Shown in pieces: positions 10,362 through 36,783 of a stretch of 64,000 nucleotides of DNA. The notes under the pieces are model-generated. The model was not told where the DNA came from, ran no database searches, and saw nothing but the letters and a program-made list of their open reading frames with translations. Position numbers and translations under genes: made by a program. How positions within the stretch are numbered: position 1 is the first letter of the stretch; the number at the start of each line of letters is the position of its first letter. Location: contig NC_046358.1 in the NCBI RefSeq assembly GCF_004027225.2, positions 2,508,720 through 2,572,719 of the forward strand. The letters run 5' to 3'. This DNA is from Strigops habroptila. Taxonomy: Eukaryota; Chordata; Aves; Psittaciformes; Psittacidae.

Positions 10362-10586
10362 TGACTGGCTACAAAACTGAATCTAGTAACAGATGCTCTG
10401 AAGAAAGCTGTTCTCCCTAGAAGGATCTGCATTCATTCTTGGAAGTATCAATTACCATTTGCAAACACACTAGATATGTGTCAAAGTGTCCAGTGTGAAC
10501 GTGGAAGAGGAGGGAGCTATGGAAGGGTGTGTTTGGGCAAGGGGAGCCAACCAGCCTAGAAGCACAGGGAGTGGCTTGGAGAGGAC

Positions 10587-10593
10587 TTTATAA
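10587..10593 (+). promoter_or_regulatory. Possible TATA box of the desaturase pseudogene
   Basis: The same TTTATAA, about 96 bp upstream of the ATG. The promoter region was duplicated with the gene, so the broken copy may still be transcribed. Confidence 0.35.
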
Positions 10594-10688
10594 CGGGCAG
10601 GCTGAGATGGTTCACTCTCTGCCCGGACACAGTGCTGCAAAGCTTAGAGCAGTGCATCTCAGCGCCACCTGCACATCTACCAGGACAG

Positions 10689-10907
10689 ATGGCTCCACAG
10701 ACTGGCCCCGCTGGAAAGGAGACGCGACCCATTTCAGCCTTCCTGCAGCTTTTCACTTGGGAAGAGATCAGAATCCACAATGGCCGTGGGCAAGGGCAGG
10801 AGCAATGGCTGGTGATTGATAGGAAAGTGTATGATGTTGGCAGGTTTTCCAAACGACACCCTGGAGGCAGCTGAGTTCTAAGCCACTATGCTGGGCAAGA
10901 TGCTACG
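10689..10907 (+). pseudogene. FADS1L: FADS1-like pseudogene, exon 1 with nonsense codon
   Basis: Colinear with intact exon 1. TGA at 10872-10874 replaces CGA (Arg 62), a CpG transition, two codons after HPGG. Other visible changes are Ser-to-Pro at residue 7 and Val-to-Ile at residue 15. The donor GTAAGG is kept. Confidence 0.93.
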
Positions 10908-11993
10908 GTAAGGTCTAGGAGGGCAGAGGAGCAAGGCTGTGCCGTTGTCAGGGCAGGAGGGCATGATGGGATGCCAGTGGAGAGTGCTCATGCTAGTTGG
11001 CACTGTGCTTGGGGCATGGCTTTGCCTAAAGCCAGGATCCAGGATTTTTTTCCAAGTTCTCTTGACTACTGTAGAGCTCATAATTGTGTCTATATGATGA
11101 GAATTGTGTGTATATGGTGAGAATTATCTTCCTCTGTGGATTACTTTGTATATGTAGACGATATGCATTGCAGAACATTATGCTGGTATCACATGTTGAA
11201 GGATAGATGAGTTGCAGATGATAGTCCTTAAAGTTAATCTCTCATAAGATAGGAATCAGGGCTTAAGAGCAGGGAGGAGAAAGGACAGGTTGCAGGACTG
11301 AAAGGCTTACGTTTCTGTGATACAAACCTGTGGTACTGGTGTTGTGGATAGGAAATTCTGCTTGAAAGGTTCTGGCCCCTGTTTCTAAGGTGCAGTATCG
11401 ATACTTACAGCTTGACTCAGTTCTAGAATTCCGGGCAAAAGGGAGCTACATAGAAAATATTTAAAATCCTGGAGAATAAGGGGGACAGAGAACATAAAGG
11501 AAAGATTTCCCCAGTCCTCTGGGTCTGAACTCATTTGTCACTGTGACAAAGGGCTGCAAGATATTTATAGAAAGCTCATCAGTCCAAAACGTCACCTTGC
11601 TCTGACTTCTTCTGGACTAACATACTCAAAGATAGACTGTCTCTAAACAAGAGACCCCAGAAGCATGGGAAAAAAGTTCGCTGAGAATATGAAGTAAAGA
11701 AGAGTTTAGGTTTTTCTGGAATTTCATCCTTTATTCCATAGTTTGTGTTTGATTTTGAAGCTGGTATTTCAAACGGTTCTTGGACAGACCTGTTTTTATG
11801 TCACTGGTGCTAGTCAGTTCCTCAAAACACCGAACTTAAGGGAACCAGTAAGAGATACCCAGATAGTCCTGCTGTGTAGGGAGCTTCACTGTATATCTCT
11901 CACGGTCCTAGAGTAATTAAGACAAGACTTTAAAAGCATCATTCTAAGCATGGCAAAGACACACTTTCATGTTTATTACCAGCCTCAAACAAG

Positions 11994-12598
11994 TAGAATC
12001 ATAGAATCATAGAACAGTTAGGGTTGGAAAGGACCTTAAGATCATCTAGTTCCAACCCCCCGCCATGTGCAGGGACACCTCACACTAAACCATGTCACCC
12101 AAGACTCTGTCCAACCTGGTCATGAACACCGCCAGGGATGGAGCATTCACAACTTCCTTGGGCAACCTATTCCAGTGCCTCACGACCCTCACTGTAAAGA
12201 GCTTCTTCCTTATACCCAATCTAAACTTCGCCTGTTTAAGTTTGAACCCATTACCCCTTGTCCTACCACTACAGTCCCTAAGGAAGAGTCCCTCCCCAGC
12301 ATCCTTATAGGCCCCCTTCAGATACTGGAAGGCTGCTATGAGGTCTCCACGCAGCCTTCTCTTCTCCAGGCTGAACAGCCCCAAATTTCTCAGCCTGTCT
12401 TCATACGGGAGGTGCTCCAGCCCTCTTATCATCCTCATGGCCCTCCTCTGGGCTTGCTCCAACAGCTCCGTGTCCTTTTTATGTTGAGGACACCAGAACT
12501 GTACACAATACTCCAAGTGAGGTCTCACAAGAGCAGAGTAGAGGGGCAGGATCACCTCCTTTGACCTGCTGGTCACGCTTCTTTTGATGCAGCCCAGG
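11994..12598 (-). mobile_element. CR1 LINE in intron 1 of the pseudogene (minus)
   Basis: Starts with the reverse-complement tail tagaatcatagaatcatag and reaches the [14 protein letters not shown] region (163-codon open remnant). Absent from the intact copy, whose unbroken site is at about 34038-34047. Confidence 0.92.
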
Positions 12599-12721
12599 TA
12601 TTTTTATGAAATTTAGTTTCTTGAAACTTCTCCAGCTTCCTTGGGCCAAGCTCCAGTTGATGGCAAAGAACTACAGGAGCAACCAAAGAGACAAAAATGG
12701 ACAAAAGGAACTGGATTGTAT

Positions 12722-13015
12722 ATTCTTAGGGACTGTAGTGGTAGGACAAGAGGTAATGGCTTCAAACTTAAACAGGAGAAGTTTAGATTAGATATAAGGG
12801 AAAAGTTCTTTACAGTGAGGGTGGTGAAGCACTGGAATGGGTTGCCCAGGGAGGTCGTGGGTGCTCCATCCCTGGCGGTGTTCAAGGCCAGGTTGGACAG
12901 AGCCTTGGGCGACATGGTTTAGTGTGAGGTGTCCCTGCGCATGGCAGGGGGGTTGGAACTAGATGATCTTAAGGTCCTTTCCAACCCTTACTATTCTATG
13001 ATTCTATGATTCTAT
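12722..13015 (+). mobile_element. CR1 LINE in intron 1 of the pseudogene (plus)
   Basis: Begins cttagggactgtagtggtag and ends with three ATTCTATG repeats. Absent from the intact copy (empty site about 33905-33912). Head-to-head with the minus CR1 123 bp upstream. Confidence 0.92.
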
Positions 13016-13108
13016 ATTATATACGAAAGACCGGTAAAAAGGAGAGGCTCAGCATCTGGCGTTTAGTCCCATATCCTTTCTGAACCCTGTCCTTTGTGTC
13101 TTTCTCAG

Positions 13109-13219
13109 GATGCCTTTATAGCATTTCACAATGATAAGTCCCTGGTGGAGAGATACTTGAAATCACTGCTGATTGGGGAGCTGGCACCAGATCAACCCAG
13201 CTTTGAGTCTAATAAAAAA
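13109..13219 (+). pseudogene. FADS1L: FADS1-like pseudogene, exon 2
   Basis: Open 111-nt exon encoding DAFIAFH...LLIGEL...SNKK. Acceptor ctcag, donor GTGAGT. The residues match the intact copy. Confidence 0.9.
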
Positions 13220-13618
13220 GTGAGTGTCCTGGAATCCAGCTGTGGGAATGGCTTGGGGTTTGGTATGGGAGGAGAAGGAAAATAAGAGAAATAGCAGCGT
13301 GCCTGACACTGTGCCGTAGGCATGGAAACTTGCAGTGTCCCAGAATCACTAAATCCACACCTGGGTGTGAGGAACAAACCCAAAGCCCCAAATTCTGCTC
13401 AGTTTTTACCATTTCAATGTGTCACTACCAAAGCTTGTCGGCAAATTGTTCTCCATTGTGAAAGCAAATCCAAGATCTGTTTATTTGATGCTCATTTTTG
13501 CACAGAGAACCCTCTGAGAGAATATTTCCTCTCACTTCCATGTCCACTTTGGGATCCTTGGGTCTGCCGTGTTTCATTTTCAATGTAGACAGTGCATTAA
13601 TACTCACTTTTCCCACAG

Positions 13619-13816
13619 AAAGCACTTTTAGAGGATTTTCGTGAGCTGCGCTGCTCAGTTGAGAAGATGGGACTTCTGAGGCCAAATTACAGCTTTTTCT
13701 TCCTGATTTTCCTTCACCTCCTGGTACTGGACGTTGCATCCTGGCTCGTGGTCTGGCACTTTGGAATATCCTTTGTGCCTTTCGTGCTTGGCATGGTATT
13801 CTTTACTGTTGCTCAG
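13619..13816 (+). pseudogene. FADS1L: FADS1-like pseudogene, exon 3
   Basis: Open 198-nt exon ([11 protein letters not shown] ... FTVAQ). By eye it is base-for-base the same as the intact copy, although intron 2 just upstream is diverged. Confidence 0.9.
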
Positions 13817-14631
13817 GTAAACTGCTGACACTCGTTCAACACTGAAGACCTGTTTGGTTCTCCCAGGCGGAGACAATAATGAATGTTGATATCACAGTTG
13901 TTGCTTTACTTCCTTGTCTTAGATCCTGTTCTCTGGCTGAAGACAACAAGCATGTTCTACGGCACAGTTTTTATTGCATCCGCAAATCTCATTTTGCTGA
14001 CAAGCTGCTCGCCAGGGTTGGTGGGGTGGTGTGAAGTTGGCATTTCATAAGATGGGATGAGCTGATCTCATCACTTACCCCAAGCAAAAGGGGGAATATT
14101 TCATTCTCAACTCCATTGTTGAATGTCTGATAGCTCTGGTGCTCGTTGAGTCCTTTATGAGCCAGTTACATTCACTAGTCCTGAATAATAGAAGGGTATG
14201 ATACATGTCAGGGTTGGTGGAGGGAAGGAGGGAATAGGACTTTGTGATCCATAGATGGAAGACACTGGAGAGTGAAGGGAGGTAGAAAGCAAGAGTTTCT
14301 TAGTGGCGCCGAAACCTTTGGTTTGCTCAGACATCTGTGGACAGGGTGTGAAGTAACTCGTGTTTTTTAAACAATCTGTTCTCTTTGCCCAGTATCTGCT
14401 AAGGCAGATACTCCTCAAAGAGCATTCTTGTATTTCCATAGGAATATGTAATGTAATCAAGTTGTGGATTTGGAAATTCTTACATTTTCTAGCTAATTGC
14501 TAGGAAATTATATATTTGCAATGGGGGCAAAAGACTTTCATGCTGTAACAAATTAATTACATTACAAATTAATTTTAATGGTACTTTGTTACTTTCCCTT
14601 CAGCTGCTACAATGAAATCAGTATCTTGTAT

Positions 14632-14702
14632 CTGAAAAGTTGGACCAGATGATCTTTGAAGTCTCTTCAACCTGGTACTCTATGATTTCATAGCATTCTA
14701 TG
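14632..14702 (+). mobile_element. Old CR1 3' tail in intron 3 (left copy)
   Basis: ttggaccagatgatctttga followed by ctatgatttcatagcattctatgat. Shared with the other arm, so older than the duplication. Confidence 0.7.
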
Positions 14703-14885
14703 ATACTGAGCAGCTTTAGGACAGTAGTCTGGAAGGAAGTTCTCAGCATCTAAGATAGCTGGTGAGGTTTCTTCCCCAAACCAGGAGGAAGATGCGCTCA
14801 CACTCTGACATTACGGAGACTCCTGAGACAAATGAATGCAATGCTGCTGTGACTCTTCTTCCTCAGTGACTCTTTTGTCTTCCAG

Positions 14886-14987
14886 ATCCAGATGGGCTGG
14901 TTCCAACATGATCTGGGGCACTGCTCTGTCCTCAGGAAGCCTAAATGGAATCGACTTCTGCATTTTGTTGTGATGAATATTCTGAAG
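14886..14987 (+). pseudogene. FADS1L: FADS1-like pseudogene, exon 4 (box 1)
   Basis: Open 102-nt exon with HDLGH kept. Acceptor ttccag, donor GTAGTT. Confidence 0.9.
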
Positions 14988-15170
14988 GTAGTTGCCTCAT
15001 GGAGGGAATATCGTCTGGGGCTAATATGGACTAAAAAATGAATGGGAGTGTCCCTACATTCAGGCAATATGGCCTGTGAGGGAAGTGTAGTGCAGCCATC
15101 AATAAGAGGTGGATAAATAGTAGTTGTTGATATTGTTCTAGTTTGAATCCCTGGTCTTCATGTTTTCCTG

Positions 15171-15299
15171 GGGTTACCAGCCAGCTGGTGGACTCACCTA
15201 CATAACCAGCACCATGCCAAACCCAACTGCTTCCGCAAAGACCCTGACCTCAACATGCACCCTCTCCTCTTCAGCTTGGGAAAGACGCTCTCCGTGGAG
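15171..15299 (+). pseudogene. FADS1L: FADS1-like pseudogene, exon 5 without acceptor
   Basis: Coding part ([11 protein letters not shown]) is open, but the acceptor AG before GGGTTACC is missing: three bases (cag) present in the intact copy are deleted at about 15170/15171. The nearest downstream AG (15179-15180) would drop 10 nt and shift the frame. Confidence 0.9.
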
Positions 15300-17396
15300 G
15301 TGAGCATGGGCATGTTTGGAGAAACAAAGATTTTACTGACAGAAAGCTATACCCAGCCCAACCCGAGCAGCAATCTGGGCTTTCCGGGTAACTCCCCCCG
15401 GTTTCTATATTGGGCACCACATGCTTTGGTATGGAATAGCCCTTTGGCTAGTTTGGGTCAGGTGTCCTGTCTCCGCTCCCTTCCGGCTTCCCGTGCCCCT
15501 CCTCACTGGCAGAGCATGAGACTGAAAAGTCCTTGATCAAAGTAAACATTATTTAGCAAGAACTAAAACCATCGGTGTGTTACCAGAGTTGTTCTCAGAT
15601 TAAAGCCGAAACATAGCACTGTACCAGCAACTAGGAAGGAGAAAAATAGCTGTTATAGCTGAAGCCAGGACAGGCACCAGCTTCTGAGTAGCAACATCTT
15701 CAAATCAGTGCTTAAGTTCTCTGTGTTGCTAGAAGAGCAGGGTAAGCACCTTGCAGGCAGCGCAAATAATGAGTCAGTCCACTTGCATTAGTGTTATATG
15801 TTGTTAGTGATCCTGTAGATAGTGAGTCAGATGTTCCCTCTGGATCCTTTTGACTGTGGGAACTGTTTGGCACCTAAATCCTTCAGGACCAATAGAGCTG
15901 CTATGCACAAAACACAAGCATAGGAAATGATTTCTTAATCATAAATTTTATGGCTTTCATAAAAATAAAAACCATGAACAGGCCCTCTCTGCATTCTTAT
16001 GATTTCTGATATCATCAGGATAGGCAAAGTCTCTTTTGCTTCTTTTTTCCCTGGCAATTCTGTTTACCCATGGGATGATGAAATGGTCTCTTTGCTAAAT
16101 AACCAGCTCTCAAACTAACATCTTTTTCTCCTTTAGCTGGTGGTAAGAAAAGATCTTATAGCTCTCCAAGGCATGAGGAAAATTCCAGCTCCACTGTCTC
16201 CAAAAGACTCCAGTAAATAGAGTTTGCACAAAATACTTATCCACTGTTAGCTGCAAGTGGGAAGGAATTTGTCCACGATCTTCTGAAAGATCTCTCACAG
16301 TTGTATATGAGCATAAGCATCTCGAGTGGCTGTGCTAGATTGGGTTGGATGGAAGTGACAATGTAGGAAATCAGTTCTCATGTCTTCCTGCTTTTTAAGA
16401 GAGAAGAATCAGGCACATTGTGGATGGGCAAAGTGGATTTCATTTAGTCCAGTTCATTTAGTCCAGTTCATTTGTTTTGTTTCAGTTTTGATCCAGTGAA
16501 GACATCTTTGAAATGTTCTTGGGGGTTTTTTTCTCACTAATAGGGAAGCTCTGAAATAGTTTGCTTTGCTTTCTTGTTATTTTGTCGTTTGAAGAATTAA
16601 AAGCACAAGATTTGCAGATGATGTTAAGAATCCTTTTGTGTAAATAGTGAAAAGATACACTGCGAAGAAAGGAACTTCTTGTGCTTTTTGTAAATATTTC
16701 ATCTCTTTGCTGTTTTGTGTAGTTGAAAGCAAAGTATTCAAGGAACTAAAAAGGTCGATGTCTTTATAGAGTGCTGGCTGCCTTGACCTTGCAGAAATTA
16801 TTGTACAGTCATTATAGGATAGCATCTAAATGCTTATGTCATTTCTGACCACTATCTCCTTTATTACTCCAAAATTTGGAATGTCTGCATCCTATCTCAC
16901 CTGATACAGCAATTCAGATGTAGCTTTCACAGCAAACACATCCTGCATTCATCACCCTCCAAGATTCCTGTCTTAGTCTTCCTGTTACTAACTTGTTCCT
17001 CCCCGAGCACTGGTAGTCTCAGCAATCTGCGGTGAATACGTGGTTAGATGGGACTTTCATTACTAGCACTAGAAACTTCTACAAAATTAAAATAACCTGT
17101 GAGCATATTTTGTGATTTTTGAGCATTTTTGTATCCTGCCACGAGTTTTGGAGCCACCCTAAAAAATGGCTCTGTTCTGACATTGACATAAAGTTGATAT
17201 CTAGATATAGAGGCTCAAATGAAATCTGCTTCTCTCTATTGCTTTGGAACTTCAGTACCTGCTTTTCAAGAGGAGGGGTTGAATTAGAGAGATTAAGAGA
17301 TAGTTCTCAGTGCATTCATTAGACAGGACTAAGAAATACCTTATAAAGGATCTCAGGTCTCCAACTGGCGCATTGCAATGTCTTTTCATCTTTCAG

Positions 17397-17454
17397 CTTG
17401 GAAAAAAGAAGAAGAAGTTCATGCCTTACAATTATCAGCATAAGTATTTCATCT
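17397..17454 (+). pseudogene. FADS1L: FADS1-like pseudogene, exon 6
   Basis: 58 nt, [18 protein letters not shown], with intact splice borders. Confidence 0.88.
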
Positions 17455-17870
17455 GTGAGTATCCCTACATACTTCCTTGCAGTGCTGTGGGAACTTCACC
17501 TAAATATCATGACTGCATCTCTTCCACAAAATAAAAGTTTTTAAGATACTCCCATTGAAGTCACAGCTTCAGGAAGCCTCCTTCACACCAAAGTAGTTTC
17601 ACATGAGAAGGAATTGCCCCTTATGTCGCTGTTAGGATTATGTGGTGTTAGGTGCTATATAGGGGTGAATCAAGTTTAAGTATGAAAGGGATGGGAAAGA
17701 ATTAAAGACTGGTGACATGAAAAGAGGAAGAGAATATGCTGACATGTGAAAGTTGGTGTAAATGGAAGACAGCATTTTTATTTCCACTGGAAAGACGGTC
17801 TTACAGAAGAATATTCTGTAAGATTTATGATGCAGTGAATTGATAAATGTCTCTCTGTTCTTTCCTTCAG

Positions 17871-17947
17871 TATTGGCCCCACTTGCACTTGTACCCTTCT
17901 TCCAGCTGTCTACATTCTACTTTGCAATCAAGAGGAAAAAGTGGTTG
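17871..17947 (+). pseudogene. FADS1L: FADS1-like pseudogene, exon 7
   Basis: 77 nt with acceptor cttcag and donor GTAAGC; encodes the hydrophobic stretch ending IKRKKWL. Confidence 0.88.
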
Positions 17948-18407
17948 GTAAGCACTGCTTACACTGTCTATACAGACCATTCAAAAACTGTCTCCACTCT
18001 GTGGCTATGTCAACCTTCCCTTCAAGTGATTGAGGGTTTAAGCCAGAAAAGGCTGATTCTAGGCTTGCTGCAGCAGGAATGCAGTCAATGGGTCTGGGAA
18101 GAATTTTCTAGAAGCTTTTTAGCCTTTTAGCAGCTGAGTAAAAGTTAACAGAAAACTATCAATCAGACCTAGTCCCAAAACAGGGCTGTTTGCTGTCTTT
18201 TTGTTACTGAAGGTGAGTGCTATGGGGATGTTTCAGGGAAACACTCATTGTGGGGCAGAATGATGGTGTGGAGCCTCCTCTTGATAAATAAGAGATCAAT
18301 AACTAAAAACATTTTTAATGCTGGAGTTCAAGTAAAAGGAGGAGGAGGGAGTGGAGGAGGTTCATCAACGAAGCCATATTTTCATCTTGTTTTGTTTCGT
18401 TGTACAG

Positions 18408-18505
18408 GACCTCTTCTTGATTGTGTCTTTCAACATTCGAGTCTGCCTCATGTATATTCCTTTAATGGGATTTAACAACTTCATGGTCTACTACTGGCTG
18501 TCCAG
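18408..18505 (+). pseudogene. FADS1L: FADS1-like pseudogene, exon 8
   Basis: 98 nt, [12 protein letters not shown] ... WLSR, with intact splice borders. Confidence 0.88.
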
Positions 18506-18872
18506 GTAACACGCAACATACCCAGAGTTCCCATGACTAATATTTGGAAACAATGTCGAGTTTCAGTGGAAATAAATGAAAAATAATAATACTCATTACA
18601 ATTTTCTGATGTTTATTTTCTAACAGACAGTCAGCTAAGAAAAAACAGGGTATTTCAGGGGAGGGGTGGTGGCTGCTCAGCAACATCTGCAACTACAAAT
18701 TGAGTGGTTCTCAAAAGAAATTTCAAAATTTAGGAGGCAAATGGATGATACAGAAAATCCTGAATTATGTAAAAGTGCTCTTTCACTAAAGATGAGATTC
18801 AGGAAGGTGCTTTAATGGTAAATTTGGATGGGATTAGAGATATGAGAAGTGTTTCTGTGTTTATCTGTGCAG

Positions 18873-18969
18873 GTACCTGGAGAGTACCTGGTTTATTTGG
18901 GTGTCTCAAATGAATCACATTCCAATGGACATCGATTACGATAAGAACGAAGACTGGGTATCTACTCAG
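18873..18969 (+). pseudogene. FADS1L: FADS1-like pseudogene, exon 9
   Basis: 97 nt, open. Encodes MNHIPMDID and NEDW, where the intact copy has MNHIPMHID and NKDW. Loss of the His fits relaxed constraint. Confidence 0.88.
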
Positions 18970-19958
18970 GTGAGAATCTCTTTTTTTCTGGAGGAATGGG
19001 TCTGCAGTTCTGAATTGTAGGACAATGTTGTTATTGTCTCAGCTATAATGCTGTGTTAATGAGGTTTGTCCTTGCTTTTTGTTAAATAGGCATTTCTGGA
19101 ACAGTAAAAACATTAGTTGTAACAAAGGACATCTAGGGTAAAAAAATCCTACCCTTTCACTGAAATGTTTTGATGTATTTTTCACAATGCTTTTCCCTTC
19201 CTATTACGAAAAAGTACTGATGATCTAAAAGTCAATCTCCTTTTTAGGCCAACTAAAGAGAAACAAAATGGGACTGGATACCTTTAATTTTTACCCTACA
19301 TGTTACAGCTATAGTACAGATAAATCTTTAGGTCTGATAAAGTGAGTATGTTAATACAACTTTACTCACATCTCTGTTGCCTCCAGCAGTATAGTCCCAT
19401 TCATTGGAGAGAAAGAGCCATTCCTAGAGCATGATTCACCTTACTCTAAAATTGACACCTAAAGCAGGTCAGAAGAATAGCACCTGGTTTTCTCCAATGA
19501 GTGTAAGGTGATGAGCTCAGATGCAGATTTCAGACCAAAGGTGCCCAAATCAGGTGAGATGAAGCCTGGGTACACAAACCTTTCCCTCATACATTTGCAT
19601 CTGACTCCACTTGTACTTGTTGGAGGAGACTAGAAGATTGGGTTTTTTTTCTTTACTGGGTATATTTCTTTCTGTCCAAGTGAAAAATGTGAGAACCTCT
19701 TAAAAGAATGGCAGTTGAGGTTGCGTGCGTGCCAGTGAAGTCGTTCTTTCTGAACAAAGAGCTATTTAAATTGACCTATATCCTAACAACCCGTTTAGAC
19801 TTTGTTAAATTCTTCAGGGCAATCATGGCTATAATCCCTGAATCTAACTTGCCACTTATGGTAGAGAGGGGTGGATAATGGTTGCTGGGGTTCAGTTATC
19901 AGACTTGCAGAAAAATTTAATCTAAATCATGTATTTCTTTGGTGTCTTTTGCTCCCAG

Positions 19959-20038
19959 CTCCATGCAACATGCAACGTGAACCAATCTTTGTTCAATGAC
20001 TGGTTCACTGGGCACCTGAACTTCCAAATTGAACACCA
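19959..20038 (+). pseudogene. FADS1L: FADS1-like pseudogene, exon 10 (box 3)
   Basis: 80 nt, same as the intact copy by eye; carries NFQIEH with donor GTAAGT. Confidence 0.88.
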
Positions 20039-20237
20039 GTAAGTACGATTATGGGGAGAAGAGTGGGAATGATATGGGCACTTAAGAGACAGAAAGACCA
20101 TGTCATCTCACATTAAACCATCTCAGGACACCCTTTGCTCTCCTTCCGGGGGAGGGCAGGGAAATACTTCGGACAGAGGGACCAGAGAGTGGTGCAAGTC
20201 GAGTCTTACAATAATTCCCTCTCTTTCAATTCTGCAG

Positions 20238-20363
20238 CCTTTTCCCCACAATGCCTCGACACAACTACTGCAAAGTAGCTCCGCTGGTGAGAGCCCTTTG
20301 TGATAAGCATGGCATTGAGTATAAAAGCAAGAGTTTACTGACAGCATTTTCGGATATTTTGCA
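20238..20363 (+). pseudogene. FADS1L: FADS1-like pseudogene, exon 11
   Basis: 126 nt, [17 protein letters not shown] ..., same as the intact copy by eye. Confidence 0.88.
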
Positions 20364-20700
20364 GTAAGTATCACTTAACAAGATAGTTTTGCACTCTAAT
20401 TGCGTGCAAGCAAGGGACATAGGCAACCATTTCAAATCTGTATCAACGGGGAGATCAAACCTGGAGTTTATTTCGGTTTTTCTAAAGGCACTTTCATTTT
20501 CAGAAATTTCCAAAGTTTCAAAGATTTGTTTTCTCTTATTAAATCCTCTCAACTCATTCCCTCTACACAGACTTTGCAATGAGATGTCCATCCAGCTTTT
20601 AATCCATTTTTTCCATTTACTTCATTTTAATGCTAAATTGCTTCCCATGAAGTTGAATATTGCCTCCCCATAAGTGATGTTTTACTTTCTGTTCCTGCAG

Positions 20701-20752
20701 TTCACTGAAGGATTCTGGGGAGCACTGGCTTGAAGCTTATCTGCATGGATAG
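20701..20752 (+). pseudogene. FADS1L: FADS1-like pseudogene, exon 12 and stop
   Basis: 52 nt encoding [16 protein letters not shown] and TAG at 20750-20752. Confidence 0.88.
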
Positions 20753-21091
20753 AAACTGGCAACTCTCAAAGGGAACCTCTTCACCAGGCAACTGCTGCAA
20801 AGAGTCTGCACAGACCAGCAGTGTTTGTGTGTGTGTTCTGGCATAGAAACTTGGGAGCTGGGCAAAGCTAATTTCAGTAAGAATGGGTGGGAAAGTGGCT
20901 TCAGGAGACATTTTTTTCTTGTTCTCAACCATGGACCTCTCTTTTTCCTGCTCTCAATCTCAGACCTTAGAGCCATGATGAACTGTGCCTTTAAACTGGG
21001 AAGAAGTAGCTCTGGAATCGGCTTGATCGGTTTACTTCATTGGAAGTGTCGGCTCATTTCATATGGAAATGTTTGAAAGGAAATCCTTCCT

Positions 21092-21450
21092 AGAATCATA
21101 GTACAGTTTGCGTTGAAGGGACTTTTAAAAATCATCTTGTCCAAAGCCCTGGCATGGGCAGGGACACCTTCCACTAGAGCAGGTTGCTCCAAGCCCCTGT
21201 GTGCAACCTGGCCTTGAACACTGCCAGGAATAGGGCAGCCACAGCTTCTCTGGGCAGCCTGTGCCAGTGCCTCAGCACCCTCATAGGGATGAACTTCTGC
21301 CTAAGATCTCATCTCAATCTCTCCTCTGGCAGTTTAAAGCCATTCACCTTGTCCTATCATTACAAGCCCTGGTAAAAAGTTTCTCTCCAACATTCTTACA
21401 AGCCTTCTTTCAGTATTGAAAGGCTGCAATAAGGTCTCCTTAGTGTTTTT
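21092..21450 (-). mobile_element. CR1 LINE, minus, just past the left arm
   Basis: Starts tagaatcatagtacagtttg and runs through the CR1 block with agcaggttgctccaagcccc to aaggtctcctt. Not present at the end of the right arm. It begins about 14 bp beyond the arm boundary. Confidence 0.82.
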
Positions 21451-22109
21451 GGCTCAGCGGATCAGTGAAAATGGGATAGTACAAAGCAAAGTGCAGGAAG
21501 TCAGGACACATTAGGACAGGGGGAGGTTCTTTAAGGAATATTCTAGAACAGATAAATAAGTATGCAAAGAACAATATGAGCTGGTGGATGTCCCCATAGC
21601 TACTGATCATATGTACACTACTTGCTTTAACTACTTAGGAGCTATAACTAGTACTGGTCATGGATTGAATAGGGAGGCAGATAATTAGATGCTAAGTTTT
21701 ACACCTGTAATGCTGGGTTTGAATACAGTCCAAAGAGTCTGTATAGCATATATTATTTATATGCATAAATACATATATACAGTTTAATTGCATGGTGATG
21801 GTGCTGTCTGATTAGCTTTTTGATGTAGACCTGCTTTGAATAAGCCTGAGAAGCCTAGGCACTGAGGCATACGTCCAGGTTGCAAGGCCATTTAGACTAC
21901 TCTTGCTTTCATTAAGTTTTATATATAAATAAATGCTTACTTCCTGGTGAATCCAAATGCTTACTTCCTGATGAATCCAAGGCCCTGTGGGCATCTACAT
22001 TTCTGCTCTGTTCCTAGATCCAGAAAAAGAATGAAATTATACCTAATTCTGTCATCTCATACGGGTCTCTTTGGGCCTTGCAAACTTTTCTCCTCTCCAA
22101 GGATCAGAT

Positions 22110-22185
22110 TAGATATTAGATTAGATATTAGGTAGAAGTTCTTCCCTTTGAGGATGGAGAGACACTGGAACTCACTCTTAGCAGT
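22110..22185 (+). mobile_element. Possible CR1 fragment
   Basis: gatattaggtagaagttctt and a following gagacactggaa block resemble the CR1 3' region, without a tail. Weak. Confidence 0.4.
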
Positions 22186-25800: not shown

Positions 25801-26147
25801 TTTTTCAAACTCTTTTTTGTTGTTCAAACACTTCCACAAGCAATGACCCGACAGCTCCAATGAAGTAAACTGACCAAGCCGATTCCAGAGCTACTTCTTC
25901 CCAGTTTAAAGGCACAGTTCATCATGGCTCTAAGGTCTGAGATTGAGAGCAGGAAAAAGAGAGGTCCATGGTTGAGAACAAGAAAAAAATGTCTCCTGAA
26001 GCCACTTTCCCACCCATTCTTACTGAAATTAGCTTTGCCCAGCTCCCAAGTTTCTATGCCAGAACACACACACAAACACTGCTGGTCTGTGCAGACTCTT
26101 TGCAGCAGTTGCCTGGTGAAGAGGTTCCCTTTGAGAGTTGCCAGTTT

Positions 26148-26199
26148 CTATCCATGCAGATAAGCTTCAAGCCAGTGCTCCCCAGAATCCTTCAGTGAA
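26148..26199 (-). CDS. FADS1L: FADS1-like gene, exon 12 and stop
   Basis: Last 52 nt encoding [16 protein letters not shown] and TAG (26148-26150). The C-terminus is colinear with the FADS ending in AYLH plus one residue. Arm homology continues about 325 bp past the stop. Confidence 0.93.
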
Positions 26200-29100
26200 C
26201 TGCAGGAACAGAAAGTAAAACATCACTTATGGGGAGGCAATATTCAACTTCATGGGAAGCAATTTAGCATTAAAATGAAGTAAATGGAAAAAATGGATTA
26301 AAAGCTGGATGGACATCTCATTGCAAAGTCTGTGTAGAGGGAATGAGTTGAGAGGATTTAATAAGAGAAAACAAATCTTTGAAACTTTGGAAATTTCTGA
26401 AAATGAAAGTGCCTTTAGAAAAACCGAAATAAACTCCAGGTTTGATCTCCCCGTTGATACAGATTTGAAATGGTTGCCTATGTCCCTTGCTTGCACGCAA
26501 TTAGAGTGCAAAACTATCTTGTTAAGTGATACTTACTGCAAAATATCCGAAAATGCTGTCAGTAAACTCTTGCTTTTATACTCAATGCCATGCTTATCAC
26601 AAAGGGCTCTCACCAGCGGAGCTACTTTGCAGTAGTTGTGTCGAGGCATTGTGGGGAAAAGGCTGCAGAATTGAAAGAGAGGGAATTATTGTAAGACTCG
26701 ACTTGCACCACTCTCTGGTCCCTCTGTCCGAAGTATTTCCCTGCCCTCCCCCGGAAGGAGAGCAAAGGGTGTCCTGAGATGGTTTAATGTGAGATGACAT
26801 GGTCTTTCTGTCTCTTAAGTGCCCATATCATTCCCACTCTTCTCCCCATAATCGTACTTACTGGTGTTCAATTTGGAAGTTCAGGTGCCCAGTGAACCAG
26901 TCATTGAACAAAGATTGGTTCACGTTGCATGTTGCATGGAGCTGGGAGCAAAAGACACCAAAGAAATACATGATTTAGATTAAATTTTTCTGCAAGTCTG
27001 ATAACTGAACCCCAGCAACCATTATCCACCCCTCTCTACCATAAGTGGCAAGTTAGATTCAGGGATTATAGCCATGATTGCCCTGAAGAATTTAACAAAG
27101 TCTAAACGGGTTGTTAGGATATAGGTCAATTTAAATAGCTCTTTGTTCAGAAAGAACGACTTCACTGGCATGCACACAACCCCAACTGTGATGCTTTTAA
27201 GAGGTTCTCACATCTTCAGCTTGGACAGAAAGAAAAGATGCCCAGTAAGCTAACAAAACCCAATCTTCTAGTCTCCTCCAACTAATACGAGTGGAGCCAA
27301 ATGCAAAAGTATGAGGGCAAAGGTTCGTGTACAGGCTTCATCTCACCTGATTTGGGCACCTTTGGTCTGAAATCTGCATCTGAGCTCATCACCTTACAGT
27401 CAGTGGAGAAAACCAGAAATTTTTATGCTGCCATTCCTCTGACCTGCTTCAGATGTCTGTTTTAGAGTAAGGTGAATCATGGTGTTTAAATGGTTCTTTC
27501 TCTCCAATGAATATAGTAGGTGTTCACATGCAGACATCCAGATGTAGTCAGAAGAATACCAAGCTCCTTTGTTTTTTCTCCTTACCGTAAGCAAAAATGC
27601 TTAAAACCACTATGTGGGATTATACTGCTGGAGACAGCAGAGCCGTGAGTAAAGTTGCATTTTTGTACTAATTTTAATCAGACAAATATTGTCAGTTTAT
27701 CTCATCTGCAGTAAACCTGTAATGTGTAGGGTAAAAACTAAAAGTATCCAGTCCCATTTTGCTTCTCTTTAGTTGGTCTAAAAAGGAGATTGGCTGTTAT
27801 ATCATCAGTGCTTTTTCATAATAAGGAGGGAAAAGCATTGTGAAAAACACATAAAAGCAGTTCAGTGAAAAAGTAGGATTTTTTTTTACTCTAGATGTCC
27901 TTTTTTCCAACTAAAGTTTTAAATGTTTTGACTACTACAGAAATGCCTATTTAATAAAAAGCAAGGACAAACCTCATTAATACAGCATTACGGATAACAG
28001 AATAACAACATTGTCCTACAATTCAGAACTGCAGACCCATTCCTCCAGAAAAAAGAGATTCTTACCTGAGTAGATACCCAGTCTTTGTTCTTATCATAAT
28101 CAATGTGCATGGGAATGTGATTCATCTGGGACACCCAAATAAACCAGGTACTCTCCAGGTACCTGCACAGATAAACACAGAAACACTTCTCATATCTCTA
28201 ATCCCATCCAAATTTACCATTAAAGCACCTTCCTGAATCTCATCTTTAGTGAAAGAGCACTTTTACGTAATTCAGGATTTTCTATGTCATGCCTTTGCCT
28301 CCTACATTTTGGATTTTTTTCTGAGAACCACTCAATTTGTAGTTGCAGATGTTGCTGAGCAGCCATCACCCCTCCCCTGAATTACACTGTTTCTTCTTGG
28401 CTGACTAACTATTATGCTGTGTGTTACCTGGACAGCCAGTAGTAGACCATGAAGTTGTTAAATCCCATTAAAGGAATATACATAAGGCAGACTCGGATGT
28501 TGAAAGACACAATCAAGAAGAGGTCCTGTACAATGAAACAAAACAAGATGAAAATAAGGCTTCATTGATGAACCTCCTCCACTCCCTCCTCCTCCTTTTA
28601 CTTGAACTCCAGCATTAAAAATGTTTTTAGTTATTGATCTCTTATTTATCAAGAGGAGGCTCCACACCATCATTCTGCCCCACATTGAGTGTTTCCCTGA
28701 AATATTCCACAGCACCCACTTTACCTTCAGTAACTAACGGCCTGCAAACAAACAGCCCTGTTTTGGGATTAGGTCTGATAGTTTTCTGTTAACTTTAACT
28801 CAGCTGCTAAAAGGCTAAAAACCTTCTAGAAAATTCTTCCCAGACCCATTGACTGCATTCCTGCTGCAGCAAGCCTAGAATCAGCCTTTTCTGGCTTAAA
28901 CCCTCAATCACTTGAAGGGAAGGTTAACATAGCCACAGAGTGGAGACAGTTTTTGAATGGTCTGTATAGACAGTGTAAGCAGTGCTTACCAACCACTTTT
29001 TCCTCTTGATTGCAAAGTAGAATATAGACAGCTGGAAGAAGGGTACAAGTGCAAGTGGGGCCAATACTGAAGGAAAGAATGAAAAAAACAGAGAGACATT

Positions 29101-32100
29101 TATCAATTCACTGCATCATAAATCTTACAGAATATTCTTCTGTAAGAAGACTGTCTTTCCAGTGGAAATAAAAATGCTGTCTTCCATTTACACCAACTTT
29201 CACATGTCAGCATATTCTATTCCTCTTTTCATGTCACCAGTCTTTATTTCTTTCCCATCCCTTTCATCCTTACACTTGATTCACCCCTATATAGCACCTA
29301 ACACCACATAATCCCAACGGCGACATAAGGGGCAATTCCTTCTCATGTGAAACTACTTTGGTGTGAAGGAGGCTTCCTGAAGCTGTGACTTCAATGGGAA
29401 TATCTTAAAAACTTTTATTTTGTGGAAGAGATGCAGTCATGATATTTAGGTGAAGTTCCCACAGCACTGCAAGGAAGTATGTAGGGATACTCACAGATGA
29501 AATACTTATGCTGATAATTGTAAGGCATGAACTTCTTCTTCTTTTTTCCAAGCTGAAAGATGAAAAGACATTGCAATGGGCCAGTTGGAGACCTGAGATC
29601 CTTTATAAGGTATTTCTTAGTCCTGTCTAATGAATGCACCGAGAACTATCTCTTAATCTTTCTAATTCAACCCCTCCTCTTGAAAAGCAGGTACTGAAGT
29701 TCCAAAGCAATAGAGAGAAGCAGATTTCATTTGAGCCTCTGTATCTAGATATCAACTTTATGTCAATGTCAGAACAGAGCCATTTTTTAGGGTGGCTCCA
29801 AAACTCGTGGCAGGATACAAAAATGCTCAAAAATCACAAAATATGCTCACAGGTTATTTTAATTTTGTAGAAGTTTCTAGTGCTAGTAATGAAAGTCCCA
29901 TCTAACCACGTATTCACCGCAGATTGCTGAGACTACCAGTGCTCGGGGAGGAACAGGTTAGTAACAGGAAGACTAAGACAGGAATCTTGGAGGGTGATGA
30001 ATGCAGGATGTGTTTGCTGTGAAAGCTACATCTGAATTGCTGTATCAGGTGAGATAGGATGCAGACATTCCAAATTTTGGAGTAATAAAGGAGATAGTGG
30101 TCAGAAATGACATAAGCATTTAGATGCTATCCTATAATGACTGTACAATAATTTCTGCAAGGTCAAGGCAGCCAGCACTCTATAAAGACATCGACCTTTT
30201 TAGTTCCTTGAATACTTTGCTTTCAACTACACAAAACAGCAAAGAGATGAAATATTTACAAAAAGCACAAGAAGTTCCTTTCTTCGCAGTGTATCTTTTC
30301 ACTATTTACACAAAAGGATTCTTATCATCTGCAATCTTGTGCTTATAATTCTTCAAATGACAAAATAACAAGAAAGCAAAGCAAACTATTTCAGAGCTTC
30401 CCTATTAGTGAGAAAAAAACCCCCATGAACATTTCAAAGATGTCTTCACTGGATCAAAACTGAGACAAAACCAACCTGACTAAATGAACTGGGCTAAATG
30501 AAATCCACTTTGCCCATCCACAATGTGCCTGATCCTTCTCTCTTAAAAAGCAGGAAGACATGAGAACTGATTTCCTACATTGTCACTTCCATCCAACCCA
30601 ATCTAGCACAGCCACTCGAGTTGCTTATGCGCATATATAACCGTGAGAGCTCTTTCAGAAGATCGTAGACAAAATCCTTCCCACTTGCAGCTAACAGTGG
30701 ATAAGTACTTTGTGCAAACTCTATTTACAGGAGTCTTTTGGAGACAGTGGAGCTGGAATTTTCCTCATGCCTTGGAGAGCTATAAGATCTTTTCTTACCA
30801 CCAGCTAAAGGAGAAAAAGATGTTAGTTTGAGAGGCTGGTTATTTAGCAAAGAGACCATTTCATCATCCCATGGGTAAACAGAATTGCCAGGGAAAAAAG
30901 AAGCAAAAGAGACTTTGCCTATCCTGATGATATCAGAAATCATAAGAATGCAGAGAGGGCCTGTTCATGGTTTTTATTTTTATGAAAGCCATAAAATTTA
31001 TGATTAAGAAATCATTTCCTATGCTTGTGTTTTGTGCATAGCAGCTCTATTGGTCCTGAAGGATTTAGGTGCCAAACAGTTCCCACAGTCAAAAGGATCC
31101 AGGGGGAACATCTGACTCACTATCTACAGGATCACTAACAACATATAACACTAATGCAAGTGGACTGACTCATTCTTTGCGCTGCCTGCAAGGTGCTTAC
31201 CCTGCTCTTCTAGCAACACAGAGAACTTAAGCACTGATTTGAAGATGTTGCTACTCAGAAGCTGGTGCCTGTCCTGGCTTCAGCTATAACAGCTATTTTT
31301 CTCCTTCCTAGTTGCTGGTACAGTGCTATGTTAATCTGAGAACAACTCTGGTAACACACCGATGTTTTTAGCTCTTGCTAAATAATGTTTACTCTGATCA
31401 AGGACTTTTCAGTCTCATGCTCTGCCAGTGAGGAGGGGCACGGGAAGCTGGGAGGGAGCGGAGACAGGACACCTGACCCAAACTAGCCAAAGGGCTATTC
31501 CATACCAAAGCATGTGGTGCCCAATATAGAAACCGGGGGGAGTTACCCGGAAAGCCCAGATTGCTGCTCGGGTTGGGCTGGGTATAGCTTTCTGTCAGTA
31601 AAATCTTTGTTTCTCCAAACATGCCCATGCTCACCTCCACGGAGAGCGTCTTTCCCAAGCTGAAGAGGAGAGGGTGCATGTTGAGGTCAGGGTCTTTGCG
31701 GAAGCAGTTGGGTTTGGCATGGTGCTGGTTGTGTAGGTGAGTCCACCAGCTGGCTGGTAACCCCTGCAGGAAAACATGAAGACCAGGGATTCAAACTAGA
31801 ACAATATCAACAACTACTATTTATCCACCTCTTATTGATGGCTGCACTACACTTCCCTCACAGGCCATATTGCCTGAATGTAGGGACACTCCCATTCATT
31901 TTTTAGTCCATATTAGCCCCAGACGATATTCCCTCCATGAGGCAACTACCTTCAGAATATTCATCACAACAATATGCAGAAGTCGATTCCATTTAGGCTT
32001 CCTGAGGACAGAGCAGTGCCCCAGATCATGTTGGAACCAGCCCATCTGGATCTGGAAGACAAAAGAGTCACTGAGGAAGAAGAGTCACAGCAGCATTGCA

Positions 32101-35100
32101 TTCATTTGTCTCAGGAGTCTCCGTAATGTCAGAGTGTGAGCGCATCTTCCTCCTGGTTTGGGGAAGAAACCTCACCAGCTATCTTAGATGCTGAGAACTT
32201 CCTTCCAGACTACTGTCCTAAAGCTGCTCAGTATCATAGAATGCTATGAAATCATAGAGTACCAGGTTGAAGAGACTTCAAAGATCATCTGGTCCAACTT
32301 TTCAGATACAAGATACTGATTTCATTGTAGCAGCTGAAGGGAAAGTAACAAAGTACCATTAAAATTAATTTGTAATGTAATTAATTTGTTACAGCATGAA
32401 AGTCTTTTGCCCCCATTGCAAATATATAATTTCCTAGCAATTAGCTAGAAAATGTAAGAATTTCCAAATCCACAACTTGATTACATTACATATTCCTATG
32501 GAAATACAAGAATGCTCTTTGAGGAGTATCTGCCTTAACAGATACTGGGCAAAGAGAACAGATGATTGTTTAAAAAACACGAGTTACTTCACACCCTGTC
32601 CACAGATGTCCGAGCAAACCAAAGGTTTCGGCGCCACTAAGAAACTCTTGCTTTCTACCTCCCTTCACTCTCCAGTGTCTTCCATCTATGGATCACAAAG
32701 TCCTATTCCCTCCTTCCCTCCACCAACCCTGACATGTATCATACCCTTCTATTATTCAGGACTAGTGAATGTAACTGGCTCATAAAGGACCCAACGAGCA
32801 CCAGAGCTATCAGACGTTCAACAGTGGAGTTGAGAATGAAATAGTCCCCCTTTTGCTTGGGGTAAGTGATGAGATCAGCTCATCCCATCTTATGAAATGC
32901 CAACTTCACACCACCCCACCAACCCTGGCGAGCAGCTTGTCAGCAAAATGAGATTTGCGGATGCAATAAAAACTGTGCCGTAGAACGTGCTTGTTGTCTT
33001 CAGCCAGAGAACAGGATCTAAGACAAGGAAGTAAAGCAACAACTGTGATATCAACATTCATTATTGTCTCCGCCTGGGAGAACCAAACAGGTCTCCAGTG
33101 TTGAACGAGTGTCAGCAGTTTACCTGAGCAACAGTAAAGAATACCATGCCAAGCACGAAAGGCACAAAGGATATTCCAAAGTGCCAGACCACGAGCCAGG
33201 ATGCAACGTCCAGTACCAGGAGGTGAAGGAAAATCAGGAAGAAAAAGCTGTAATTTGGCCTCAGAAGTCCCATCTTCTCAACTGAGCAGCGCAGCTCACG
33301 AAAATCCTCTAAAAGTGCTTTCTGTGGGAAAAGTGAGTATTAATGCACTGTCTACATTGAAAATGAAACACGGCGGACCCAAGAATCCCAAAGTAGACAT
33401 GGAAGTGAGAGGAGATATTCTCTCAGAGGGTTCTCTGTGCAAAAATGAGCATCAAATAAACAGATCTTGGATTTGCTTCGACACTGGAAAACAAGTTGCC
33501 CACAAGCTTCGTTACTGAGACATTGAAGTCGGCAGAACCGAGCAGAATTTGGGGCTTTGGGTTTGTTCCTCACACCCAGGTGTGGATTTAGTGATTCTGG
33601 GACACTGCAAGTTTCCATGCCTACGGCACAGTGTCAGGCATGCTGCTAGCTTCTCCTCCCATACCAAACCCCAAGCCATTCCCACAGCTGGATTCCAGGA
33701 CACTCACTTTTTTATTAGACTCAAAGCTGGGTTGATCTGGTGCCAGCTCCCCAATCAGCAGTGATTTCAAGTATCTTTCCACCAGGGACTTATCATTGTG
33801 AAATGCTATAAAGGCATCCTGAGAAAGACACAAAGGACAGGGTTCAGAAAGGATATGGGACTAAACGCCAGATGCTGAGCCTCTCCTCTTTCCAGGTCTT
33901 TGGTATATAATGTGCAATTCAGTTTCCTTTGTCCATTTTTGTCTCTTTGATTGCTCCTGTAGTTCTTTGCCATCAACTGGAGCTTGGCCAAAGGAAGCTG
34001 GAGAAGTTTCAAGAAACCAGATTTCATAAGAATACCTGGGAGAGGCTGGTAATAAACATGAAAGTGTTTGATGAAAAACCCTTTGCAGAGGAAAACATGC
34101 TCTTTCATCTGCTTGTTTCAGCACAATCCTTCCCTAGAAGGCTCCAGCCAGCAGCCCTGCCCTATGGATGGGACCCAGAAGGAGGAAAACATGGCAGTGA
34201 ATAAGGTGTGCCTTTGCCGTGCTTAGGATGATGTTTATAAAATCCTTATTATATTAGGACCATGGGAGATATACAGTGAAGCTCCCTACACAGCAGGACT
34301 ATGTGGGTATCTCTTACCATTCCTTGTAAGTTTTCAGACTGATTGATATTTTGGAGAATTGGGTAACACCAGTGACACAAAAATGGGTCTGTCCAAGAAC
34401 CATTTCAAATACCATCTTCAAAATCAGACACGAACTATGGAATAAAGAATGAAATTCCAGATAAAAAAAACCTCTTCTTTAGCTCATGTTCTCAGTGAAA
34501 TTTTCCAGAAGAAGGTTAAAGAGACTGATTATACTCCAGAAAGAGTAGATGTAACAGAATCCTCAGTGTCTGAGCAGCCAAATACTGGCTGATTTTGGCT
34601 TTGAAAATCAATGTGGGTGACCATGACGCAAACAAATTTTGCACATGTCTGGTAGGGATTAAGTCTCTGGAAGAGATCAGAGGATTTCTACAGTCTGACA
34701 TTCTTCTGGGGTCTCTTGTTTAGAGACAGTCTATCTTTGAGTATGTTAGTCCAGAAGAAGTCAGAGCAAGGTGACGTTTTGGGCTGATGAGCTTTCTATA
34801 GATATCTTGCAGCCCTTTGTCACAGTGACAAATGAGTTCAGACCCAGAAGACTGGGGAAATCTTTCCTTTATGTTCTCTGTCCCCCTTATTCTCTAGGAT
34901 TTTAAATATTTTCTATGTAGCTCCCTTTTGCCAGGAATTCTAGAACTGAGTCAAGCTGTAAGTATCGATACTGCACCTTAGAAACAGGGGCCAGAACCTT
35001 TCAAGCAGAATTTCCTATCCACAACACCAGTACCGCAGGTTTGTAACACAGAACATAAGCCTTTCAGTCCTGCAACCTGTCCTTTCTCCTCCCTGCTCTT

Positions 35101-35676
35101 AAGCCCTGATTCCTATCTTATGAGAGATTAACTTTAAGGACTATCATCTGCAACACATCTATCCTTCAGCATTTGATACCAGCATAATGTTCTGCAATGC
35201 ATATCGTTGACATATACAAAGTAATCCACAGAGGAAGATAATTCTCACCATATACACACAATTCTCACCATATAGACACAATTATGAGCTCTACAATAGT
35301 CAAGAGAACTTGGAAAAAAATCCTGGATCCTGGCTTTAGGCAAAGCCATGCCCCAAGCACAGTGCCAACTAGCATGAGCACTCTCCACTGGCATCCCATC
35401 ATGCCCTCCTGCCCTGACAACGGCACAGCCTTGCTCCTCTGCCCTCCTAGACCTTACCGTAGCATCTTGCCCAGCATAGTGGCTTAGAACTCGGCTGCCT
35501 CCAGGGTGTCGTTTGGAAAACCTGCCAACATCATACACTTTCCTATCAATCACCAGCCATTGCTCCTGCCCTTGCCCACGGCCATTGTGGATTCTGATCT
35601 CTTCCCAAGTGAAAAGCTGCAGAAAGGCTGAAACGGGTCGCGTCTCCTTTCCAGCGGAGCCAGTCTGTGGAGCCAT
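26148..35676 (-). CDS. FADS1L: FADS1-like front-end fatty acid desaturase, intact 12-exon gene
   Basis: Seen: twelve exons (complement 35458-35676, 33708-33818, 33124-33321, 31950-32051, 31635-31763, 29495-29552, 28990-29066, 28428-28525, 28066-28162, 26862-26941, 26537-26662, 26148-26199), each with GT/AG borders, join to 1,347 nt: 448 codons plus TAG. Cytochrome b5 domain at residues ~22-95 (FTWEEI, HPGG 57-60, second heme His about 80). Two hydrophobic segments lie in exon 3. Histidine boxes are HDLGH 184-188, HNQHH 221-225 and QIEHH 386-390. Known: this is the front-end desaturase layout; FADS1 adds the delta-5 double bond in arachidonate and EPA synthesis in the ER membrane. Wording such as [20 protein letters not shown] and the SLK-SG C-terminus is closer to FADS1 than FADS2. 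Inference: it looks too diverged for the ordinary FADS1 orthologue, so I call it a FADS1-like paralogue. The ATG at 35676 is the first in-frame ATG. Confidence 0.92.
26537..26662 (-). CDS. FADS1L: FADS1-like gene, exon 11
   Basis: 126 nt encoding [20 protein letters not shown]...[26 protein letters not shown] directly follows box 3 in FADS proteins. Acceptor ctgcag, donor GTAAGT. Confidence 0.93.
26862..26941 (-). CDS. FADS1L: FADS1-like gene, exon 10 (histidine box 3)
   Basis: 80 nt encoding [26 protein letters not shown], with the split His codon completed in exon 11. QIEHH is the third box; Gln as its first residue marks front-end desaturases. Confidence 0.93.
28066..28162 (-). CDS. FADS1L: FADS1-like gene, exon 9
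   Basis: 97 nt encoding [21 protein letters not shown] and then DWVSTQ. The MNHIPMHID wording is FADS1-type. His in MHID and Lys before DW differ from the pseudogene, which has Asp and Glu. Confidence 0.92.
28428..28525 (-). CDS. FADS1L: FADS1-like gene, exon 8 (membrane segment)
   Basis: 98 nt, the usual length. Encodes [12 protein letters not shown]... and YYWLSR, a membrane-spanning part of the desaturase domain. Acceptor tacag, donor GTAACA. Confidence 0.9.
28990..29066 (-). CDS. FADS1L: FADS1-like gene, exon 7
   Basis: 77 nt, the usual FADS exon 7 length. Encodes a hydrophobic stretch and then a basic turn, IKRKKWL. Acceptor cttcag, donor GTAAGC. Confidence 0.9.
29495..29552 (-). CDS. 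FADS1L: FADS1-like gene, exon 6
   Basis: 58 nt starting [18 protein letters not shown], ending in phase 1 with donor GTGAGT. The YNxQHxY motif is conserved across FADS proteins. Confidence 0.9.
31635..31763 (-). CDS. FADS1L: FADS1-like gene, exon 5 (histidine box 2)
   Basis: 129 nt, codons 211-253. Contains [15 protein letters not shown], the second box (HxxHH). The acceptor reads tttcctgcag and is complete, unlike the pseudogene. Donor GTGAGC. Confidence 0.93.
31950..32051 (-). CDS. FADS1L: FADS1-like gene, exon 4 (histidine box 1)
   Basis: 102 nt, codons 177-210. Contains GWFQHDLGH, the first histidine box (HDxGH), followed by KPKWN. One visible change from the other copy: CAT ATT (His-Ile) here against CAT TTT (His-Phe) there. 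Confidence 0.93.
32238..32310 (-). mobile_element. Old CR1 3' tail in intron 3 (right copy)
   Basis: Reverse-complement counterpart of 14632-14702, at the same intron position. Confidence 0.7.
33124..33321 (-). CDS. FADS1L: FADS1-like gene, exon 3 (first membrane pair)
   Basis: 198 nt, codons 111-176, the length of the equivalent mammalian FADS exon. Begins [11 protein letters not shown] and then holds two hydrophobic stretches ending FTVAQ. I see no base difference from the pseudogene copy. Confidence 0.93.
33708..33818 (-). CDS. FADS1L: FADS1-like gene, exon 2
   Basis: Codons 74-110 (DAFIAFH...[18 protein letters not shown]), phase 0 at both ends, acceptor ctcag and donor GTGAGT. Carries the probable second heme ligand (AFH, His 80). 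LLIGEL is a shared desaturase motif. Confidence 0.93.
35458..35676 (-). CDS. FADS1L: FADS1-like gene, exon 1 (cytochrome b5 domain)
   Basis: Codons 1-73, from ATG to ...AGQDAT, with donor GTAAGG. Holds [16 protein letters not shown] and the heme-binding HPGG. Codon 62 is CGA at 35491-35493, the site of the nonsense change in the other copy. Confidence 0.93.
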
Positions 35677-35771
35677 CTGTCCTGGTAGATGTGCAGGTGG
35701 TGCTGAGATGCACTGCTCTAAGCTTTGCAGCACTGTGTCCGGGCAGAGAGTGAACCATCTCAGCCTGCCCG

Positions 35772-35778
35772 TTATAAA
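35772..35778 (-). promoter_or_regulatory. Possible TATA box of the intact desaturase gene
   Basis: TTTATAA on the minus strand, about 96 bp upstream of the ATG and near the outer end of the duplicated arm. Position fits a core promoter with a short 5' UTR. No transcript evidence. Confidence 0.4.
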
Positions 35779-36742
35779 GTTCTCTCCAAGCCACTCCCTG
35801 TGCTTCTAGGCTGGTTGGCTCCCCTTGCCCAAACACACGCTTCCATAGCTCCCTCCCTTTCCACGTTCACAACAGACACTTCGACACACCCTTGAATAAA
35901 AGCCCTGTTCCTTCTTGCCCTTTGTGAGTTGCCTTTGGAAGGTCTGATTACTCATGAGAGCTGTAGACTACTTCACTGAATACAAATATGCATAAAAAGA
36001 AAAACTTCAGAGGATTATCTATTAGAGATGGCAAAAAACCAGAAAGGACTATTAAGTGAGCACCTCTATAGAGCATTAGGAACTGGATAAGGTAAGCTGT
36101 TAACTTACATCCATACTGCTGAGTCAATACTAGGGATTAACCAGAAGAGAAAGCTGAGGAAGTCTGTGAGCAGCTCCTCTGCAGCAAATATCCAGTGACT
36201 GTCATAGCAAACTGAAGCACTGTCAGCATCCTGTAATTCTTTAATCAGTCATTAACATTAGGAAATCCTGCATTTGCCATAGAGAGGAGCTTCATAATGT
36301 CGTCCAACACCAAAATGTAAACCTGTACAGGAGCCTGTGTGAAGAGCCAAAAGCTGCTATTAAATGTATTTGCTAACATCTCTCATTCAACTGTAATTTC
36401 TGCCTTCAAGGCATAGAGCCAACTTGTGCACTAGCATAGGGAAAAGAGCAGAATGTTCCAGTCTCTCCATGAGGTCTCTCTTAACAATCTTGTCACTACC
36501 CAAAACCTTCAGGTTGTCCTTGATCTTTGAAATGCTAAATTTATGTCTCATTTTTAACTGAAAGCATTGTTATGTACTGTTATTAAGGAAACATTATTCT
36601 CTCCAGTTAATTTAGTTTGCACATTGACAACTCTTTGCATACAGTTGCTTTCAGTTTCCTGCATATACTCCAGTCATTCAGTCATCTCATTGTTCAACAA
36701 ATTCCTTCACAAGTCAACAACAAACATCAAAAGATTTTGGGA

Positions 36743-36783
36743 ATAATAATAATTACAATAATAACAACAACAACAACTATTAA
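36743..36783. repeat. (AAT)n/(AAC)n simple repeat
   Basis: aataataataattacaataa then an acaacaacaac run; an imperfect trinucleotide microsatellite. Confidence 0.85.

Follow-up and report, generated by a model that had tools for sequence, protein, structure and literature searches.

An inverted and permuted duplication of a FADS1-like desaturase gene in the kakapo, with a strong signature of gene conversion

The window analysed here is a stretch of 64,000 nucleotides from the kakapo, Strigops habroptila (G000, contig C4, NC_046358.1, 2508720-2572719), and our whole-genome searches covered 1.149 Gb on 89 contigs. The window holds two FADS1-like genes in inverted orientation, inside a desaturase cluster. 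When the protein of the right-hand copy was searched against the genome, all 44 matches listed fell on C4 between 2,466,484 and 2,590,948 (54/54 candidates scored), where the gene models run in the order FADS2 (-), FADS1 (+), the inverted pair and a further FADS1-like gene (+). The names FADS2, FADS1 and FADS1-like for the neighbours are provisional, drawn from similarity to human sequences, and we take the gene of the inverted pair to be a putative FADS1L1 by its position, a name also found in a paper on the willow warbler. The right copy shares 303/444 amino acids with the FADS1 neighbour, 280/429 with the other FADS1-like gene and 237/435 with FADS2; it is a 12-exon gene within the FADS cluster and, judged by these identities, nearer FADS1 than FADS2. 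The avian Z is marked by DMRT1-3, and three DM-domain matches lie inside 95 kb on a different contig, C26; C4 is therefore probably an autosome. Exon 1 of the FADS1 neighbour (C4 2494596-2494826) and that of the outer FADS1-like gene (2578294-2578461) are 93-94% alike over a DNA match of 200 bp, whereas most other exons of these two genes are 42-86% alike (exon 11, 90%), so conversion seems to reach these paralogues too.

Front-end desaturases are recognized by an N-terminal cytochrome b5 domain carrying HPGG, an FA_desaturase domain and three histidine boxes, the final one starting with Q. The translated right copy contains HDLGH, HNQHH and QIEHH along with HPGG, and Pfam finds both a Cyt-b5 domain (PF00173, 4.4e-22) and an FA_desaturase domain (PF00487, 1.2e-32) in it, so that by domains and motifs it is a FADS front-end desaturase of the FADS1-like type. 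The left copy is broken in two places: codon 62 (10872-10874) reads TGA where the right copy has CGA, and a 3-bp deletion has removed the AG acceptor of exon 5, with TG now at 15169-15170. One fragment of exon 5, searched against solved structures, had no meaningful hit (best E 0.66). Pfam runs on six-frame pieces left seven of nine proteins without a match, the only matches being to desaturase and reverse transcriptase. Two long reading frames for the reverse transcriptase of a CR1-like LINE lie at 45514-47613 (+) and 51275-52609 (-), Pfam having been run on the second only; the intervals 46312-47698 and 51190-52576 are inverted copies, 99.2% identical. The repeat name CR1 is a presumed assignment throughout.

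An earlier note on this DNA had described a whole long-chain fatty acid desaturase gene with its flanks, one copy intact and one broken, converging tail to tail around a spacer of about 4.7 kb, and had proposed checking this by self-comparison and arm alignment. Both were run, and they recovered inverted arms at 10477-21077 and 25823-35888 that are two copies of the FADS1-like gene, in matches of 87.6-97.5% (Table 1). The spacer between them measures 4,745 bp (21078-25822), the 3' flank within the arm is 325 bp, as had been estimated, and is accompanied by ~210 bp of 5' flank, spliced alignment bears out 12 exons in both copies, and the left gene on the plus strand and the right gene on the minus strand both face the spacer. 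The domains place the open right copy in the family that the note had named, and the left copy is the broken one. Over 9,537 aligned columns the arms differ at 342 (3.6%; mean identity 96.4%), in an alignment that leaves out gap columns and the CR1-disrupted stretch at 11975-12600 of the left arm. Two CR1-like fragments in intron 1 of the left arm (11994-13012), within a stretch of high divergence, are missing from the right arm. Immediately upstream of the left arm lies a direct tandem duplication (1347-4646 / 4156-7467; 98.6% over 3,314 columns, offset ~2.8 kb); Tandem Repeats Finder at score 150 returned 0 rows.

Table 1. Positions in the window of the duplicated segments, the gene copies and the pieces between them (identities from self-comparison).
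Feature	Position	Strand	Remarks
Left arm G1	10477..21077	+	5' flank, 12 exons, introns, 325 bp 3' flank of FADS1-like gene; pseudogene
Left copy, coding span	10689..20752	+	12 exons; stop at codon 62, exon-5 acceptor gone
Identical 1,296-bp tract, left	19730..21025	+	exons 10-12, introns, 3' flank
x	21078..22617	.	partnerless part of spacer; CR1 fragment 21088-21439
D2	22618-25797	-	spacer; 3'-flank segment adjoining G2; inverted copy of D1
Right arm G2	25823..35888	-	inverted relative to G1
Identical 1,296-bp tract, right	25875..27170	-	
Right copy, coding span	26148..35676 (CDS 35676..26148)	-	12 exons, 448 aa, GT-AG introns, stop TAG
y'	35889..38322	.	between G2 and F2; 2.4 kb; partnerless within 98 kb save a ~60 bp CR1-like piece
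F2	38323-38816	-	upstream of G2 in gene sense
z	38817-39443		partnerless piece
D1	39444-42826	+	beyond right arm; other D copy; CR1 at about 40454-40808
F1	43429-43926	+	downstream of D1
Inverted match	34699-35888 / 11667-10477		97.5%
Inverted match	28413-33911 / 18520-13016		97.2%
Inverted match	27615-28406 / 19399-18629		87.6%
Inverted match	25823-27512 / 21077-19399		96.5%

The differences between the arms are strongly clustered, with a variance/mean of 12.7 in 200-column bins. The longest run without a difference extends over 1,296 bp, a length that direct comparison confirms as exact, whereas the longest obtained from 2,000 shuffles reached 381. A hidden Markov model with two rates, 0.9% and 16.9%, described the arms better (BIC 2518) than one with three rates (2546) or one (2957), though the high-rate class is chosen because it is high, and aligning beside gaps can push its 16.9% upwards. 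The identical tract directly borders sequence that is 15-17% diverged. A young inverted duplication (about 3-4%) that never underwent conversion, its local differences reflecting constraint, mutation-rate variation and insertions, would account for the mean arm difference, and it could draw on the fact that 260 of the 1,296 positions in the tract are coding. Non-coding sites alone, however, differ at 0/1036 within the tract against 105/696 on one side and 9/52 on the other (tract borders were set post hoc, so that P values for tract versus flanks are nominal), and the same mixture appears in single-copy DNA beyond the arms, in segment D, where 28/901 adjoins 142/1327 and 53/346. On the non-coding contrast we rejected a uniformly young duplication, which we regard as very improbable. 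Conversion from arm to arm, to which the note had thought such a palindrome prone, is the simplest cause of this mosaic, for which the patchwork of identity is strong evidence. A mean identity of 97% thus hides older divergence: so sharp a mosaic of identical and 15-17% diverged stretches indicates a duplication much older than that figure suggests.

As for the plain two-arm palindrome that the note had pictured, the inverted arms stand and the simplicity does not, as two further segments, D and F, are also duplicated and the second copy is permuted. The distal part of D (41487-42826) has two scored matches in the genome, both in the window, and so does F; D and F are therefore duplicated single-copy DNA, and common repeats are ruled out for both. 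In gene sense, copy 1 reads G1 and then, after 18.4 kb, D1-F1, and copy 2 reads F2-G2-D2. Homology between G1 and G2 ends at 21077/25823 and that between D1 and D2 starts at 39444/25797; copy 2 has only 26 bp between the end of G and the start of D, which makes G1 and D1 look like a single locus split by 18.4 kb. F1 and F2 differ at 33/492 positions, and a difference of only 6.7% would mean that F was either converted or is younger than D. Partners for x, y', z and the stretches that follow D1 and precede the left arm were sought by short-word blastn across the 98,001 bases of the window plus neighbouring sequence, and only CR1-like pieces turned up; part of x (21440-22617) matches elsewhere only through a repeat piece of ~60 bp (40/153 candidates scored).

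The arrangement also bears on whether the structure is an assembly artefact, made of misjoined haplotypes or a false duplication. The junctions are checkable only with reads, and the identical tract, although shorter than long reads, could confuse polishing. Against this, the arms are 3.6% apart, carry unequal CR1 insertions and include stretches that differ by 10-17%; their flanks differ, D and F are permuted, neither the window nor the 98,001-base stretch contains a single N, and the C4 contig is 86 Mb long. We rejected an artefact as the leading view on the arm difference, the unequal CR1s and the absence of N, and consider it the least probable of the readings weighed here.

We think it probable that a FADS1-like gene was duplicated long ago together with D and F, that one copy was inverted, that conversion repeatedly overwrote parts of the copies and that the left one was lost late. 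The gene would have been copied with D and F, which lay downstream of it, inside the FADS cluster. The layout route that we favour would begin with a direct tandem duplication, (G-D-F)(G-D-F), of which the middle F-G piece was then inverted, after which the arms, by then inverted, would have crossed over and so flipped the spacer. Such a past inversion of the spacer is plausible, the order and orientation of D being compatible with one flip under one model only. Counting against the tandem route, x, y' and z are without a partner in the 98 kb compared where it predicts one. The main rival for the layout is a permuted inverted insertion: a single complex event, either template switching or a G-D-F circle that opened between D and F and was inserted backwards between G1 and D1, with conversion following. 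It would take one step instead of three, and the order F-G-D of copy 2, which sits exactly at the G1/D1 border, is that of G-D-F permuted circularly. Yet such an event would be unusual, and the FADS1-like genes next to the pair resemble ordinary tandem copies; the rival likewise leaves the 2.4 kb of y' between F2 and G2 unexplained, and we judge it unlikely, if a serious competitor. On our account of the whole history, recurrent conversion between the inverted arms would have replaced one portion or another on separate occasions, which would give a mean identity of ~97% even with stretches that escaped conversion and are 10-17% apart.

Assumed clock rates (1.5-3.5e-9 per site per year) would place the duplication, as a very rough estimate, tens of millions of years ago, to be read as an order of magnitude only. 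For the distal part of D, 10.7% (substitutions only; 12.6% with gaps counted) translates into about 16-39 My; for the high-rate class of the arms, 16.9% (biased upward by its choice as the high class) translates into 27-64 My. An age below about 0.8 My suits the identical tract. F, at 6.7%, gives 10-23 My, a misfit with the age of D unless F was partly converted.

The last step would have been the loss of the left copy by the stop and the splice-site deletion. The two proteins agree at 441/448 positions, the stop counted as a difference, and the 17 coding differences comprise 10 synonymous and 7 non-synonymous ones, one of the latter being the stop; seven or fewer non-synonymous changes arose with P=0.0047 in 20,000 simulations. 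With the stop codon excluded, dN between the copies is 0.0057 and dS 0.036. For most of the time there was probably protein-level constraint on both copies or, as could also explain the synonymous bias, on a single copy coupled with conversion. Since synonymous changes predominate in the coding sequence, the death of the broken copy was probably recent, and because the stretch holding the exon-5 lesion shows only 4 differences in 1,256 columns, that lesion probably postdates the last conversion there. More tentatively, the locus may be a palindrome on an autosome, tens of millions of years in age, whose two FADS1-like copies were kept similar and functional by arm-to-arm conversion; on this reading the copy in ancestral orientation would later have died, its role passing to the inverted one, and the spacer could still flip in the population. 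The comparison covered a single genome, from which any direction of conversion or ancestral orientation is conjectural.

Both the gene family and this kind of structure have known counterparts. In birds and reptiles a lineage-specific expansion of Fads1-like genes is reported, of which chicken has three and green anole five, and whose functional consequences are given as unknown (Castro et al. 2012, PMC3285190); the portion of that paper available to us describes labelled cluster genes and mentions neither a near-identical pair in inverted orientation nor conversion nor a pseudogene, all of which are seen or indicated here. In the willow warbler, FADS2, FADS1L1 and FADS1L2 are reported in tandem in one interval of chromosome 5 (PMC9883250), which matches the present cluster; the inversion described in the accessible part of that account is a megabase one between subspecies, and a gene-scale inverted pair like ours is not mentioned there. 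Sex-chromosome palindromes, as far as the available text of two reports goes (PMC8981503, PMC3403216), likewise have gene-carrying inverted arms homogenised by conversion, but these exceed 99% identity from end to end and are sex-chromosomal, whereas the pair here is on a contig other than the one with the DMRT cluster. In the kakapo locus the inverted arms are long, the spacer between them is short, and near-identity is patchy in a way indicative of conversion; identity above 99% throughout the arms is not found (mean 96.4% over 9,537 columns), and old stretches are left.

We conclude that this is a real and well supported inverted segmental duplication with gene conversion in the already known FADS family, unusual for its layout and for the clarity of its conversion record. 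A literature search, mostly outside subscription journals, found no earlier report of the same structure. Textbook palindromes with conversion are mostly sex-chromosomal, and this one, which involves a gene family of long-chain fatty acid synthesis, apparently sits on an ordinary chromosome. The locus keeps its own record of conversion, with tracts of differing apparent age next to unconverted sequence. Counts of FADS genes in bird genomes that are based on similarity can include a dead copy, and a comparison with related birds could tell if it was conversion that maintained both desaturases and if dose or diet played a part.
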